Source of the DNA: Bacteroidia bacterium
GTDB lineage: Bacteria; Bacteroidota; Ignavibacteria; SZUA-365
DNA length: 64,000 bases
Assembly (NCBI GenBank): GCA_027493955.1
Contig: JAOSJT010000001.1
Location: 3,583,131-3,647,130, forward strand
Reading direction: 5' to 3'
Numbering within the stretch: the stretch's first letter is position 1; each line of letters opens with the position of its first letter. Under the pieces are notes generated by a model. The model did not search any database. It worked only from the letters and a program-made list of their open reading frames with translations, and was not told the DNA's origin. This document shows positions 39,696 through 49,689 of this stretch, piece by piece. Both the position numbers and the translations under genes were made by a program.

Positions 39696-40399
39696 ATCAC
39701 GCCAAGGGCGATGAGCACGAAGGCCGGGCCGTTGAGCACGGCGTGAATGATGACGCCAATCCAGGAATTCGCGCGCCGCTGCACGATGAAGGGCAGAATG
39801 AACAGTATCGGCAGCAGCGTGAGCAGCAATTGCCAGCCGAAGGCGACGTGAAACACCGTCCAACCCAGCGCGTGGTGCAGCCAGGCGTGACTGCCGATGC
39901 CCTCCTCCATTCGGGGCAGCATGACGCCGCGCCACAGAATTTCCTCTCCCATGATATTGAGCAGCCAGAACGGCAGCCAGGCGAGGAGAATCCAGTAGCG
40001 GCCGGGCCCCAGCACCTCGAAGCGCATGAACGGCGGTTGCGTATGCACCGCGCCGGCGAAGGCCTCGATCAGCTTCATGATCACCATGCTGAGCGTTCCG
40101 ATGGCAAGCACCCCGCCGAGCGTCCACATCCAGTCCTCGCGGTTCATCGCCCTGAAGCGCAGCCGCTCCCGCCAGATGGACGGACGAAGCGGGCCTTCGC
40201 GTTCGAGCAGCACCCAGGCCGCAATCAGCAATGGGAGAAACACGCCGAGCCCCGCGCACAGAAACCACGACACAATGATCTCGATACCCGCCGCCTCGCT
40301 GAGCCAGGGAATAAACAACTGCGTATGCAGCAGCAGCGCCGCGGCGGCGATGATGAAGATGACGCGGGATTGGGAAATGGACATGGGAGGGAGAGACAT
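39692..40399 (-). CDS. CPBP-family intramembrane glutamic/metalloprotease
   Basis: 235 aa, about six to eight TM segments. The CAAX protease/bacteriocin-processing motifs are present: EEILWRG in LLNIMGEEILWRGVML, then HVAFGW and HAVLNGPA. It cleaves proteins within the inner membrane; bacterial members act in stress, peptide processing or immunity. The ATG at 40399 (MSLPPMSISQS) or 40384 is likely; the frame is open to 40753 but similarity stops here. The first 81 codons and 66 bp upstream are duplicated at 42.7-43.0 kb. Confidence 0.87.
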   Translation of the reverse strand: MSLPPMSISQSRVIFIIAAAALLLHTQLFIPWLSEAAGIEIIVSWFLCAGLGVFLPLLIAAWVLLEREGPLRPSIWRERLRFRAMNREDWMWTLGGVLAIGTLSMVIMKLIEAFAGAVHTQPPFMRFEVLGPGRYWILLAWLPFWLLNIMGEEILWRGVMLPRMEEGIGSHAWLHHALGWTVFHVAFGWQLLLTLLPILFILPFIVQRRANSWIGVIIHAVLNGPAFVLIALGVI

Positions 40400-40465
40400 G
40401 CGATATCCGTGTTGATGACCGATAGGGGAAAAATACGAAGCAACGGGCAGAGTGCGGTATGCACG
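40156..40465. repeat. 310-bp direct repeat, copy 1 (inside and upstream of CPBP gene)
   Basis: Identical to 42685-42994 except for two adjacent bases (CAACGG versus CGGCGG near 40443). Copy 1 covers codons 1-81 of the intact CPBP gene plus 66 bp of upstream DNA, so it is presumably the original. The centres are 2529 bp apart. Confidence 0.95.
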
Positions 40466-40907
40466 ATGGAGATGCGGATGCGGGAGGGTAGGTGACAGCT
40501 TGAACGTCGTCGCCGGTGGAGGCGTGCTTTCGAGACAGCTCGAGGCAGAGGTAATCTCTCTGATCCGCTTCATCACGCCGTACCGAAAATTCTTTTTACC
40601 AGAAGACATCAAACGCTTGCATTTCTGTTTTTTTTTTACGTTAAAAGCAACTAGTACGTGAGGTCTTTGTTGGATCCGAAAATGCAGATGTACCCGTGAA
40701 GGGGTAGAGCAGAAGAGCGGTACGGGCAATACGTTACGTTTTATATAAGACAATCCGACCTTGTTAGTATGATTAGGAGTTGCGAGAAATGCGCCATATT
40801 CTGTCGCTTGCTGTAGGTATCCCCTTCATCCGAAGGTTGGTGAGCGCACAACATCCAGCGAAGGCCCCGTCGATGCGAGAATTTCTGAATTGGAACCAAG
40901 GTGCGCC
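40400..40907. other. 508-bp intergenic region, start of AT-richer patch
   Basis: Contains the end of direct-repeat copy 1 (to 40465), an A/T-rich stretch with a nine-T run near 40630, and TATATAAG near 40743 that could be a promoter element for the following gene. A possible leader ORF lies at 40789-40926. Nothing else recognised. Confidence 0.5.
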
Positions 40908-40926
40908 ATGTGCAGACGAAGCTTGA
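40789..40926 (+). CDS. Possible leader/small ORF (45 aa)
   Basis: ATG preceded by TTAGGAG about 9 bp upstream. The product begins MRHILSLAVGIPFIRRLVSA. It overlaps the start of the secreted-protein gene at 40908 in another frame, so it might couple translation, or be chance. No homology recognised. Confidence 0.25.
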   Translation: MRHILSLAVGIPFIRRLVSAQHPAKAPSMREFLNWNQGAPCADEA

Positions 40927-41798
40927 ATATTCTTTGTGTGATCGTGCTACCTGTTGTCGCTCTGATCACCCTCGCGGATACGGCATACAGTCAGGCGGTG
41001 ATCACCGCAAAGGCACGGATCATCGGCGTTGAACGATATAATCAGCATGGCAGCGGTTCAGGTCCAACCATTGTGGGACCCAACATTATACGGCATGTGC
41101 AATCAGATCTGGCGGAGTTGCCATCAAACGGATCCAGTTTCCAGTTTAACAAGACGGATCAGAGTTCGGATTTGAGCTTCAGAGACACCTGCGATTTACA
41201 CACGACCCTGGAATTTGACAGCGTTTCCCAGGCAGGAAAAATCGGTATTCATTCCTGCAGCGACGTCACAGTCAGTAGCTTTTACACGAAGCAGAGTATG
41301 TATCCCGGGGTGATTCACAACACCTTTGAATTCCGTACGACGCGCATCGGAGTTGAATTGGAATCGGAACATGATCCGAATCTCACGGTGAGAGAGAGGA
41401 ATCTCGTATCGGCATCGCCATCATTGGCAATCTGGAGCGCAGAACGTCTCCTTCCGCATATCGCTACATCGGAGGATGCAATGAAATCCCTATTGGAAAA
41501 ACTACTGACTTTTTCCATACCAGGGATTTTTGTTCAACAGGTTGACATTAACGTAGAACGAGAAACCGCGACACTTCATGATCAGAGAATCCGCATACAT
41601 GCGAAGGCGTCAAATGAATCCACTCTCCTGCCCGCAATCCATGAGATTGACGGGACAATCGTTGTAGATGGAGGCAACGTAACAATGATACAGGTACAGG
41701 TCGCTACATCGCCGGGGAAAGAACAAGGAAAAGGCCGACACGGAATTGCGCTTGATGTTTCAGGCGTGCTAACGCTTGAAGTGAATAGAGTACACTGA
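40908..41798 (+). CDS. Exported hypothetical protein
   Basis: 296 aa from ATG 40908 (AAGG 7 bp upstream; a TTG six codons earlier is less likely). A signal peptide is clear (LNILCVIVLPVVALITLADTAYSQ). The mature protein contains YNQHGSGSGPTIVGPN, two Cys in FRDTCDLHTT and GIHSCSDVTV that may form a disulfide, and a strand-rich C-terminal half (IDGTIVVDGGNVTMIQVQVA). I recognise no family. Codon use is visibly more A/T-rich than in the flanking genes. It is followed at 20 bp by the interrupted lipoprotein gene and is probably in one operon with it. Confidence 0.7.
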   Translation: MCRRSLNILCVIVLPVVALITLADTAYSQAVITAKARIIGVERYNQHGSGSGPTIVGPNIIRHVQSDLAELPSNGSSFQFNKTDQSSDLSFRDTCDLHTTLEFDSVSQAGKIGIHSCSDVTVSSFYTKQSMYPGVIHNTFEFRTTRIGVELESEHDPNLTVRERNLVSASPSLAIWSAERLLPHIATSEDAMKSLLEKLLTFSIPGIFVQQVDINVERETATLHDQRIRIHAKASNESTLLPAIHEIDGTIVVDGGNVTMIQVQVATSPGKEQGKGRHGIALDVSGVLTLEVNRVH

Positions 41799-41818
41799 AC
41801 CTTTAACAGGAGGAAACA

Positions 41819-42577
41819 ATGAAGATCACAGTTTCTTGCTCAATGTTGGCGTTCGTCTTGCTGTTCTTCGTAATGTGCTAAGACGAAACGCCGCTTACAG
41901 GTAGCAACAGCCATCAAGCGCCGGCTACGATTCACATGCCATTCAACGGCAATAACCCGTATGACTCGACAGGCATAGTGCACAACAACCTGCTCGAATA
42001 TCTTATCAACTACATCCCAGCTGATGACACGAGCGGAACCGGTCGAGCCAGCGCGTTGAAGGATGGAATATATTCGTTGTATGACTCACTAGGTCTCACG
42101 ATGGCCGATGCAGACTCATTGATCCAGTGGATCTCCAATAACTTCCACGCCGGTGAATCTCAACAATGGTTGAACAGCTATATCGCGAACTATTCATCCC
42201 CTAGATGTACTCAGCGTGAGCTGGGCTACATTCACCAAATCGGTCAGGCCTTCGAGGTAGCAACTGACTCAGCCGGTATTATGAACGCCCTGCTTTCGAT
42301 TGAATATGCGATGGTTCACGAAAATTGGGAAGAAGAGGAGACAATCGCTCTCGGGGCGATTTCCATTGCCAAAAATTCAACATATAGCGCGCTCACGAAA
42401 CAAGTCGGCGGTTGCCTATCGGCTGAAATTTATGCGTGTAGTGTAGATTATACGTCGTATCTTGCATCAATGGATGCAGATTGTGACAGAAAAAAAGCGG
42501 AGAGGTCCTCAGCGGGTATGTCAGCAGTAGCCTACGCCTTGTACATCTGTTGGGAACACTGGAATCCGGAAGGATAG
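41819..42577 (+). pseudogene. Lipoprotein-like gene interrupted by an in-frame TAA at codon 21
   Basis: A strong ribosome-binding site (AGGAGG) sits 5 bp before the ATG at 41819. The first 20 codons encode a signal-peptide-like MKITVSCSMLAFVLLFFVMC, and codon 21 is TAA (41879-41881). The same frame then stays open for 231 codons, starting DETPLTGSNSHQ, as expected for the mature part of a lipoprotein. A stop-free remnant could only start at ATG 41936, which has no ribosome-binding site and no signal. The mature part is helical and acidic (SLIQWISNNFHAGESQQW) with four Cys late on; no family recognised. Nonsense mutation, sequencing error and recoding are all possible. Confidence 0.65.
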
Positions 42578-42604
42578 GGTGAGCCGAATAAGAAGTAGTA
42601 ATTG

Positions 42605-42928
42605 TCAAATGACGGGACCGTCGACCCCAATCGGTGGTCCCGTTGTAAGTGAAACGGGAAGCAGTAAGCAAGAATCGAGTTTTGAGCGCAGCCGCTCCCG
42701 CCAGATGGACGGACGAAGCGGGCCTTCGCGTTCGAGCAGCACCCAGGCCGCAATCAGCAATGGGAGAAACACGCCGAGCCCCGCGCACAGAAACCACGAC
42801 ACAATGATCTCGATACCCGCCGCCTCGCTGAGCCAGGGAATAAACAACTGCGTATGCAGCAGCAGCGCCGCGGCGGCGATGATGAAGATGACGCGGGATT
42901 GGGAAATGGACATGGGAGGGAGAGACAT
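42605..42928 (-). pseudogene. Truncated second copy of the CPBP protease gene
   Basis: Codons 1-81 match the intact CPBP gene exactly from the ATG at 42928. After 42685 the sequence switches to unrelated DNA, adding about 26 missense codons (SKLDSCLLLPV) before a stop. It lacks the EEILWRG and His motifs, so it cannot be an active protease, though a membrane peptide could still be made. Confidence 0.85.
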
Positions 42929-42994
42929 GCGATATCCGTGTTGATGACCGATAGGGGAAAAATACGAAGCGGCGGGCAGAGTGCGGTATGCACG
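42685..42994. repeat. 310-bp direct repeat, copy 2
   Basis: 308 of 310 bases identical to 40156-40465, same orientation. The flanking bases on both sides are unrelated to those of copy 1. No target-site duplication or transposase is visible. Confidence 0.95.
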
Positions 42995-44974: not shown

Positions 44975-45562
44975 ATGAAAAATACCGTCCTTCATATCAA
45001 AAACATGGTTTGTCCCCGCTGTATTCGTGTAGTTCGCGAGGAGTTGGACAAGCTCGGGCACGATGTGCGCAGTGTGGTACTGGGGGAGGCTGTCATCAGC
45101 GGGACGGTGGAGGCCGGAGCGTTGGAAAGCATACGCGGGGTGCTCGAACAGAGCGGGTTTGAACTGATACAGGATAAGCGTGTCAGAATCATCGAGGCCA
45201 TCAAACATGCGGTGCTGAAGTTGGTACATAACGACCACGAGCAGAATCCGGTGGCCATCAACGATTCAGAATTTATCGCCCGAGAAACCGGCCATGAGTA
45301 CCACTATCTCACAACGCTTTTTTCATCGATTGAGAACGTAACAATCGAGCAGTATATCATCCTCCAGAAAATCGAATATGTGAAGGAACTGCTGAAGTAC
45401 GGCGAATTGACTCTCAGTGAAATTTCCTATCGCATGGGTTACAGCAGTGTAGCGCATGTTTCGAATCAGTTTCGCAAAGTCACAGGTATGTCGCCGACGC
45501 AGTTCAAGTCGCTCGGGGGCGCTCACCGGCACCATATCGACAATGTGAAGCCCATGCGCTGA
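44975..45562 (+). CDS. HMA domain-AraC family metal-responsive regulator
   Basis: 195 aa. Residues 1-65 form a heavy-metal-associated-like domain with metal motif MVCPRC (Cys13, Cys16). Residues ~90-185 form an AraC-type double helix-turn-helix (HEYHYLTTLFSSIENVTIEQY, ELLKYGELTLSEISYRMGYS, VSNQFRKVTGMSPTQFKSL). This short architecture occurs mainly in Bacteroidetes and is usually beside copper or other soft-metal export genes. It is likely to sense Cu(I) directly and activate the downstream OMP and copZ-copA units, which share an upstream element. The C-terminus ends in a His-containing tail (GGAHRHHIDN). Confidence 0.87.
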   Translation: MKNTVLHIKNMVCPRCIRVVREELDKLGHDVRSVVLGEAVISGTVEAGALESIRGVLEQSGFELIQDKRVRIIEAIKHAVLKLVHNDHEQNPVAINDSEFIARETGHEYHYLTTLFSSIENVTIEQYIILQKIEYVKELLKYGELTLSEISYRMGYSSVAHVSNQFRKVTGMSPTQFKSLGGAHRHHIDNVKPMR

Positions 45563-47161: not shown

Positions 47162-47416
47162 ATGAAATCAATCACAGTGAACATACACGGCATGACATGC
47201 AATCACTGCATCATGAGCATCCGGAAGGAATTGGCCAAGGTTCCGGGTGTGCTCGTGGATGAGGTGACAATCGGACACGCGGCGCTGCGTATCAATCCCG
47301 CTATCGCAGGAGAAGAGGAAATTCGACGAGCGGTTGAAGCGGCAGGCTACAGCGTACTTGAAATCAATGAAGAAAACCAGGACAGCCCCGGTCATGGAAA
47401 GGAAATACGGAAATGA
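47162..47416 (+). CDS. CopZ-like copper chaperone (single HMA domain)
   Basis: 84 aa. One ferredoxin-like HMA domain with MTCNHC in [21 protein letters not shown], and [12 protein letters not shown] at the end. It carries Cu(I) in the cytosol and hands it to the adjacent CopA. AAAGG lies 9 bp before the ATG at 47162. The frame is open 50 codons further up, but that part includes the putative operator. It overlaps copA by 4 nt (ATGA), so the two are made together. Confidence 0.88.
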
Positions 47417-49689
47417 ATACCAACGAAACAACAAGCACGGTTCCCGCCACGTACACATTGCCGGTAGAAGGAATGACCTGCGCGAGTTGTGTTGTGCGCG
47501 TTGAAAAAGCCATCGGGCAGCTCCCTGGAGTCGAATCCGCAAGCGTGAATCTCGCAACGGAAAAAGTCAGCTTCTCCTTCGATCCCGACGTTACAGATCT
47601 ACCCGCCATCGCTACGGCGGTAGAGGCAGCCGGGTACACCCTGATAACTCCCAGGGAGACGGAGCCGCATCATATCGTCGACATCGAGCACAAAGGAGCG
47701 GCGTCGGATTCCGATCCACAGGCTGCAGCCTATGTCAAATTGAAGCGGGATTTGAAACTCAGTGCGGTTCTTTCAGTGCCCGTCATGCTCATAAGCATGG
47801 TGAGCATGTCCCCATGGTTCATGAACGCCGTGCCCGTCGGAATGCAGGAGATCAACACTTTTCTGCTGATTGCGACCAGCGTGGTGATGTTCGGACCGGG
47901 GAAGAGATTCTTCAGCATTGCCTCGCGACTGGCGCGGCATGGATCGGCGGATATGAACAGTCTTGTGGCCATCGGAACGGGCACGGCATACGTGTTCAGC
48001 GCCATCGTCACCCTCTTTCCGCACTGGCTGCCGATCGAGAATCCGATGGAGCATATCTACTTCGACACCGCGTCGACCATTATCACCCTGATTCTGCTTG
48101 GCCGGCTGATGGAGGCACGGGCGAAGCGCAAGACGACGGACGCGATGCGCACGCTGCTCGGGCTGCAGCCGAAAATCGCGCACGTCAAACGTGGCGATGC
48201 TATTAACGATGTGCCGCTTCGCGAGGTCCGGCAGGGTGACGTGGTGCTTGTCAGGCCGGGTGAACATATCCCGGTGGACGGCCTGATCGTGGCAGGGACA
48301 AGCGCGGTGAACGAAGCGATGATCACCGGCGAAAGCATGCCTGTTGAAAAACGTGCGGGCGATACCGTGACGGGCGGCACCGTGAACTCCAATGGAAGCC
48401 TTGAAGTTCAGGCGACGGCGATTGGCGAGAGAAGCGTCATCGCTCAAATCGTCCGGCTTGTCGAAGAAGCGCAGGGCTCGAAAGCACCGATTCAGCTTTT
48501 GGCCGACAAGATAGCCGGTGTTTTCGTCCCGGTTGTGCTCGGGATATCGCTGCTCACATTTGCCGGATGGTATTTCATCGGCGGCGTTCCCGTCACAGTG
48601 GCGATGATCAATTTCATCGCCGTGCTGATCATCGCCTGCCCCTGCGCACTCGGGCTTGCAACTCCGACCGCCATTATGGTTGGAACCGGATCCGGTGCTT
48701 TGAGAGGTATTCTGATAAAAAATGCGGAGAGTCTTGAACGCGCCCACAACATTAACATTGTGGTCCTGGACAAAACCGGAACGGTGACCACGGGTTCCCC
48801 TTCGGTTACTGCGGTATCACTGTTCGGCGAGATGAATGAAGATTCGCTGCTCTCGCTCGTGGCATCGGTTGAGGCAAGGTCGGAACATCCCATTGCACAG
48901 GCAATTGTCGAGTACGCGAAACAGAAGAAAATCGATCTCCTGCCAATTGACAGCTTCCAGTCATATAGCGGGCTTGGTCTGACAGCTGTCGCGGGCGACC
49001 ATACCGTGATTATCGGCAACGCAGCATTCATGAAGGACTGGGTCATATCTACCGAAGCCGCTGAGGCCGAAGCGCAAGCCATCGCAACTCGTGCCGCGAC
49101 GGCCGTGCATATTGCCATAGATGGCGTAATTGCGGGACTGATTGCCGTCGCGGACACCATTAAGCCGACTTCCCGACAGGCTGTTGCGCAACTGCGTGAA
49201 ATCGACATTGAGGTCATTATGATCACTGGTGATAATCAACAAACCGCCGAGGCCATCGCGCGGGAAGCCGGAATTGATCGCGTGATCGCCGGAGTTCTCC
49301 CGGGAGGGAAAGCCGATGAGATCCGCAAGCTTCAGCGCGAAGGCGCAGTGATTGCGATGGTTGGCGACGGCATCAATGATGCTCCCGCTCTGGCGCAGGC
49401 GGACGTCGGTATTGCCATGGGCAACGGCACCGCCGTCGCCATGGAAACCGCCGATATCACGCTGATGCGCAGCGATCTGATCGGAATCGGTGAGGCGATA
49501 CGGCTCTCGCGTGCAACCGTGCGTACGATCAAGCAGAATCTCTTCTGGGCGTTCATCTACAACATAGTCGGTATTCCCATCGCCGCGTTTGGCTTGCTGA
49601 ATCCCATGTACGCCGCCGCCGCGATGGCAATAAGTTCGGTGAGCGTGGTATCGAACTCGCTGCGTTTGCGACGGGCGGCGATAGGTTGA
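47413..49689 (+). CDS. copA: Copper-exporting P1B-type ATPase
   Basis: 758 aa. One N-terminal HMA domain (GMTCASC, Cys23/Cys26). Eight TM helices, with the transport motif CPC at 409-411 in [16 protein letters not shown]. Phosphorylation site Asp453 (DKTGTVTTG), the HP motif of P1B pumps in SEHPIAQAI, and [16 protein letters not shown] are present. The last TM pair ([36 protein letters not shown]) fits Cu(I) specificity of the P1B-1 group. It moves Cu(I) from cytosol to periplasm. Last gene of the unit; a strong hairpin follows. Confidence 0.96.

Follow-up and report, generated by a model that had tools for sequence, protein, structure and literature searches.

Does a stop codon that directly follows the putative lipid-anchor cysteine of a lipoprotein-like gene mark a broken gene, a short peptide gene or an unusual reading of the genetic code? 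The question arose in a 64,000-nucleotide stretch of DNA (the window), which lies within a single 5.24-Mb contig from an uncultured bacterium of an Ignavibacteria-related lineage, with genome completeness rated 100%. Here, the Shine-Dalgarno motif AGGAGG precedes ATG 41819 on the plus strand, which opens a run of 20 codons ending in Cys (MKITVSCSMLAFVLLFFVMC; Cys codon TGC, 41876-41878). An in-frame TAA lies directly 3' of this codon, and the translation of 41819-42580 continues behind it with DETPLTGSN... over 231 sense codons, closed by a TAG at 42575-42577. The layout described in the first-pass annotation (ribosome-binding site, signal sequence, Cys, TAA and 231 open codons) was thus confirmed by translation. 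The features of the locus are collected in Table 1.

Table 1 Features of the interrupted gene, its cassette and the flanking repeats (positions refer to the window)
Feature	Positions	Strand	Remarks
310-bp direct repeat, left-hand copy: presumed CPBP-like gene (minus strand), 5' part and region upstream of it	40156..40465		
Low-GC cassette with both genes	40466..42684	+	Single copy in genome
Upstream gene, signal-peptide protein of 302 aa, possible ATG at 40908	40890..41798	+	Ends 20 nt before ATG 41819, tight tandem
Truncated ORF: type II-like signal peptide, 20 codons with Cys as the last, then TAA	41819..41881	+	Translation; aligns with the signal peptides of nine homologues
In-frame TAA after the putative lipid-anchor Cys codon	41879..41881	+	Translation; sense codon in 9/9 homologues
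Post-stop frame, 231 codons and TAG, mature part of the helical lipoprotein family	41882..42577	+	Homology, profile match
310-bp direct repeat, right-hand copy with 2 mismatches: presumed CPBP-like gene, truncated 5' fragment	42685..42994		

Homology on both sides of the stop

At the local base composition, 231 codons would stay open by chance with a probability of about 5e-6. Neither an additional stop nor a frameshift was found among them, leaving the TAA as the single lesion, and decay is thus restricted to one codon as far as observed. The codon usage of the post-stop frame (-0.012 bits per codon) exceeded that of the other two frames of the same strand (-0.336 and -0.311); one reverse frame came near it (-0.031), and this frame contains 10 stops.

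With the 231 post-stop residues as query, matches were obtained in eight of the 61 genomes searched, all of the same family (best E 1e-10), and a profile search of all 12 genomes of the family likewise matched eight. These 12 genomes include no further species of the genus. Besides the window gene, nine homologues were obtained, eight of them in seven other genomes and one as a paralogue in the same genome; six of the homologue loci belong to metagenome bins assigned to Ignavibacteria or 'Bacteroidetes'. All nine were uninterrupted; in each, a signal peptide leads up to a lipobox Cys whose next codon is a sense codon, and the Cys column was nearly invariant in the alignment. This count of nine refers to the 61-genome and family profile searches and excludes 11 matches from outside the family (L017-L026, L028), several of which were merely of signal-peptide size. 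A wider search of 395 genomes of the phylum matched 11, the own genome included. The own genome also contained a third, weak match (E 0.05), and a single-protein scan of the genome contigs matched no homologue.

A profile made from the nine homologues, excluding the window gene, was aligned with the window frame carrying an X at the stop. The alignment ran across the TAA from residue 8 to 189, and the profile Cys fell on the Cys of the window gene. The score amounted to 74.6 bits across the stop versus 70.7 bits for the post-stop part alone. Since the signal region contributes only 3.9 bits, the main proof is the common order of signal peptide, Cys and conserved domain. The match ended about 65 residues short of the C-terminus, indicating that the tail is divergent, and with identities of only 20-25% the homologues are too distant for measuring selection. 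As judged from the homology of the frame on both sides of the stop, the TAA interrupts a real, putative lipoprotein gene. None of the homologues begins after the stop and all nine carry a sense codon behind the Cys, so the recent nonsense mutation favoured in the first-pass annotation survives as the best-supported reading.

We thus regard the locus as quite probably a young, nonsense-inactivated gene, the second in a two-gene cassette, whose product would have been a helical protein, exported and anchored by a lipid. Translation from ATG 41819 would make the 20-residue signal peptide and halt at the TAA; an anchored mature domain would not be produced and the lipoprotein would be lost. A restart at 41936, the first in-frame ATG 3' of the stop, would yield at most a cytosolic fragment without an export signal, and no ribosome-binding site is evident for this ATG in the sequence. 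The youth of the lesion would explain why the remaining frame is still open, and the function may be supplied by the uninterrupted paralogue. With bacterial nonsense pseudogenes the locus shares one in-frame stop at a place where homologues have a sense codon, followed by a frame that is still open and homologous; with recent ones it shares an uninterrupted paralogue in the genome and a cassette of probably recent arrival. It differs from them in the position of its stop exactly after the lipobox Cys, which was seen only once.

Position of the stop and the lipobox

The frequency of such arrangements was assessed in a 464-kb sample of the genome, comprising the window and 20 stretches of 20 kb. 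The bare pattern of a Shine-Dalgarno start, a short ORF, a stop and 150 or more in-frame open codons, with no signal peptide required, was common, with 50 rows when nested starts were counted apart. A strict scan for a signal peptide, a Cys, a stop within three codons and then at least 60 open codons returned the window gene as the only broken case versus 20 unbroken candidates, a set that probably includes some proteins other than lipoproteins. The window gene stands above chance because a run of 231 open codons is improbable, homologues exist, the profile passes through the stop and the case is unique in the strict scan. The exact place of the stop is a different matter: of the 251 sense codons of the gene, 83 would turn into a stop through a single substitution, so its position directly after the Cys carries no special weight post hoc and is a coincidence among many possible sites, in a case seen once only. 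If the reading as a young nonsense mutation stands, the locus represents one more recently broken gene, of use chiefly as a caution that coincidence can place a stop at a striking position.

The lipobox of the window gene, FVM-C, is atypical as well. Lipoprotein processing normally calls for A, G or S at position -1. The nine homologues, with Ala (8/9) or Ser (1/9) in front of the Cys, agree with this expectation, as do 15 of the 20 unbroken scan candidates with Ala, Gly or Ser, whereas the window gene has the Cys but a Met at -1. In addition to the stop, the gene departs from the pattern at this Met, which is compatible with decay and could also be native.

These observations bear on the main rival explanation, according to which the TAA arose through faulty base calling or assembly of an ordinary, uninterrupted lipoprotein gene. 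A single codon interrupting the frame with no other lesion is what such an error would leave, and Cooley and Wright attribute many internal-stop pseudogenes to assembly errors (PMC11017572). However, the genome is a single contig of rated 100% completeness, the lipobox is atypical at -1 too, and the strict scan of 464 kb contained no other lipoprotein stop of this kind. Although one wrong base would still be compatible with each of these points, we consider an error unlikely, and the TAA is presumably present in the organism itself.

Function of TAA in this genome and alternative readings

In this genome, TAA is an ordinary stop of the standard code. Among the 242 ORFs of 200 aa or more in the 464-kb sample, 59 end in TAA, and the median run-on past the stop was 30.5 codons for TAA, compared with 30 for TAG and 28.5 for TGA. 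The mean run-on was higher for TAA (85 versus 55 and 53 for the other stops), largely because of one run-on of 1107 codons in L047. Nine TAA ends had run-ons of at least 100 codons; several of these, including L047, enter apparent downstream genes with their own starts, while L056 and others have no such assignment. Rfam marked 47 tRNA places and ARAGORN called 46 tRNAs, none of the latter with a UAA-reading anticodon. One place lacking an ARAGORN call (L109:1-171) gave a weak tRNA match of 33.8 bits; it has a valine-type anticodon by eye and may be a tRNA gene in decay.

Readthrough, whether programmed or tolerated, or recoding would require that the TAA is decoded at some rate and the full-length lipoprotein is made. 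An open frame with homology on either side of the stop is shared with genes of this class, and readthrough of in-frame stops was proposed to be widespread in prokaryotes (PMC7918605). The window gene differs from recoded genes in that TAA terminates like TAG and TGA in the 464-kb sample, a suppressor anticodon is missing among the called tRNAs, and no signal structure was detected: the RNA around the stop folded no better than shuffled sequences (z 0.40) and matched no Rfam family. Moreover, a stop at that position occurred in 0/9 homologues. On these grounds recoding was discarded as the main reading, and readthrough at this codon appears highly improbable. Most likely, the gene is ordinary in kind, recently broken and involves no new reading of the genetic code.

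Phase variation was likewise rejected, since neither a repeat tract nor an invertible element is present at the stop; the absence of a tandem repeat tract there leaves no sign of a switching site, and the 310-bp direct repeats that flank the cassette could only delete or duplicate it. The idea of phase-variable reversion or recoding, raised as conceivable in the first-pass annotation, hence found no support from a repeat tract, a readthrough structure, a suppressor tRNA or a reassigned TAA.

Alternatively, the 20-residue hydrophobic peptide could itself be the product, comparable to the enterococcal pheromone inhibitors, or the gene could be switched on and off. A strong ribosome-binding site precedes the ORF, which stops precisely at the Cys, and a precedent by analogy may be seen in enterococci, whose pheromones correspond to the terminal parts of lipoprotein signal peptides and are countered by short inhibitor peptides resembling signal sequences (PMC7117660). 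Like peptides of the cAD1/iAD1 type, the window peptide is hydrophobic and matches a lipoprotein signal peptide. This is a resemblance only, seen here at the level of sequence and in another phylum, and the truncated form is absent from the relatives (0/9). Furthermore, the homologous frame of 231 codons would not stay open downstream of a dedicated peptide gene unless the change were very recent, and the lack of a repeat tract at the stop speaks against switching. Altogether, we give a peptide product or a switched gene very little credence. A working peptide gene in the full sense, coupled to the upstream gene, encoding only a signal peptide with a C-terminal Cys that would act extracellularly or in the membrane, and trailing the body of the old lipoprotein, seems very improbable as well.

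The cassette, the protein family and the neighbouring genes

The cassette of about 2.2 kb has a GC content of about 48%, versus 57% in the sampled genome. Its flanking 310-bp repeats are 99% identical, differing at 2 of 310 sites. The full copy of the repeat-associated gene, which we take to be CPBP-like, lies to the left of the cassette, and the right repeat is its truncated 5' piece. Repeats this similar suggest that the cassette is a recent insertion or duplication. At the divergence of the repeats, the expected number of nonsense hits in the gene is 0.12 to 0.24; one hit would thus be plausible and unremarkable if the gene arrived intact at that time. In codon usage, the post-stop frame ranked 12 from the bottom among 242 ORFs and the neighbouring gene ranked 9, as would suit genes that are foreign or expressed at a low level; these ranks give no age for the lesion.

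DNA matching the cassette site was present in the own genome only (1/13 genomes), and none of the relatives offers an empty-site comparison. Neither cassette gene had plasmid matches, and the lipoprotein part had no phage matches. For the upstream gene, no relative was found in 20 other genomes, plasmids, Pfam, NCBIfam or PHROGs.

The lipoprotein matched no family above cut-off in Pfam and NCBIfam and no family in PHROGs. A solved relative was not found by sequence; the best hit, an M protein chain (E 0.033), was taken as chance. The structure model of the post-stop protein of the window was poor (pLDDT 60.9), and its Foldseek matches were not meaningful. The model of an uninterrupted homologue was fair (pLDDT 80.4) and nearly all helical; it gave no Foldseek match at E <= 0.001, and its best VIA-align 2 score (Z 5.3) was within the chance range for helical bundles. 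The latter model is consistent with a family of helical lipoproteins that has no name in Pfam or NCBIfam, and we claim no function for it. Besides the broken gene, the locus draws attention to an unnamed, predicted helical lipoprotein family and to a cassette that was probably inserted recently in this uncultured lineage related to Ignavibacteria.

In a subgroup of the homologues (L037:4866-7364 and L040:1153-3784), the genes downstream encode a Por_Secre_tail-like secreted protein and another exported protein, the latter with a weak match to an outer-membrane barrel in L040. This arrangement may represent a conserved three-gene set. The secreted proteins downstream in L037 and L040 resembled the product of the upstream cassette gene by eye and were considered as its relatives; this candidate was rejected (BLASTP versus L037, E 0.29; identities of 16 and 22%). 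Within the window, a 195-aa ORF at 44975-45562, which we assume to combine an N-terminal metal-binding CxxC domain with an AraC-type DNA-binding domain, lies near an ORF at 47413-49689 that presumably encodes a copper-type P-ATPase.
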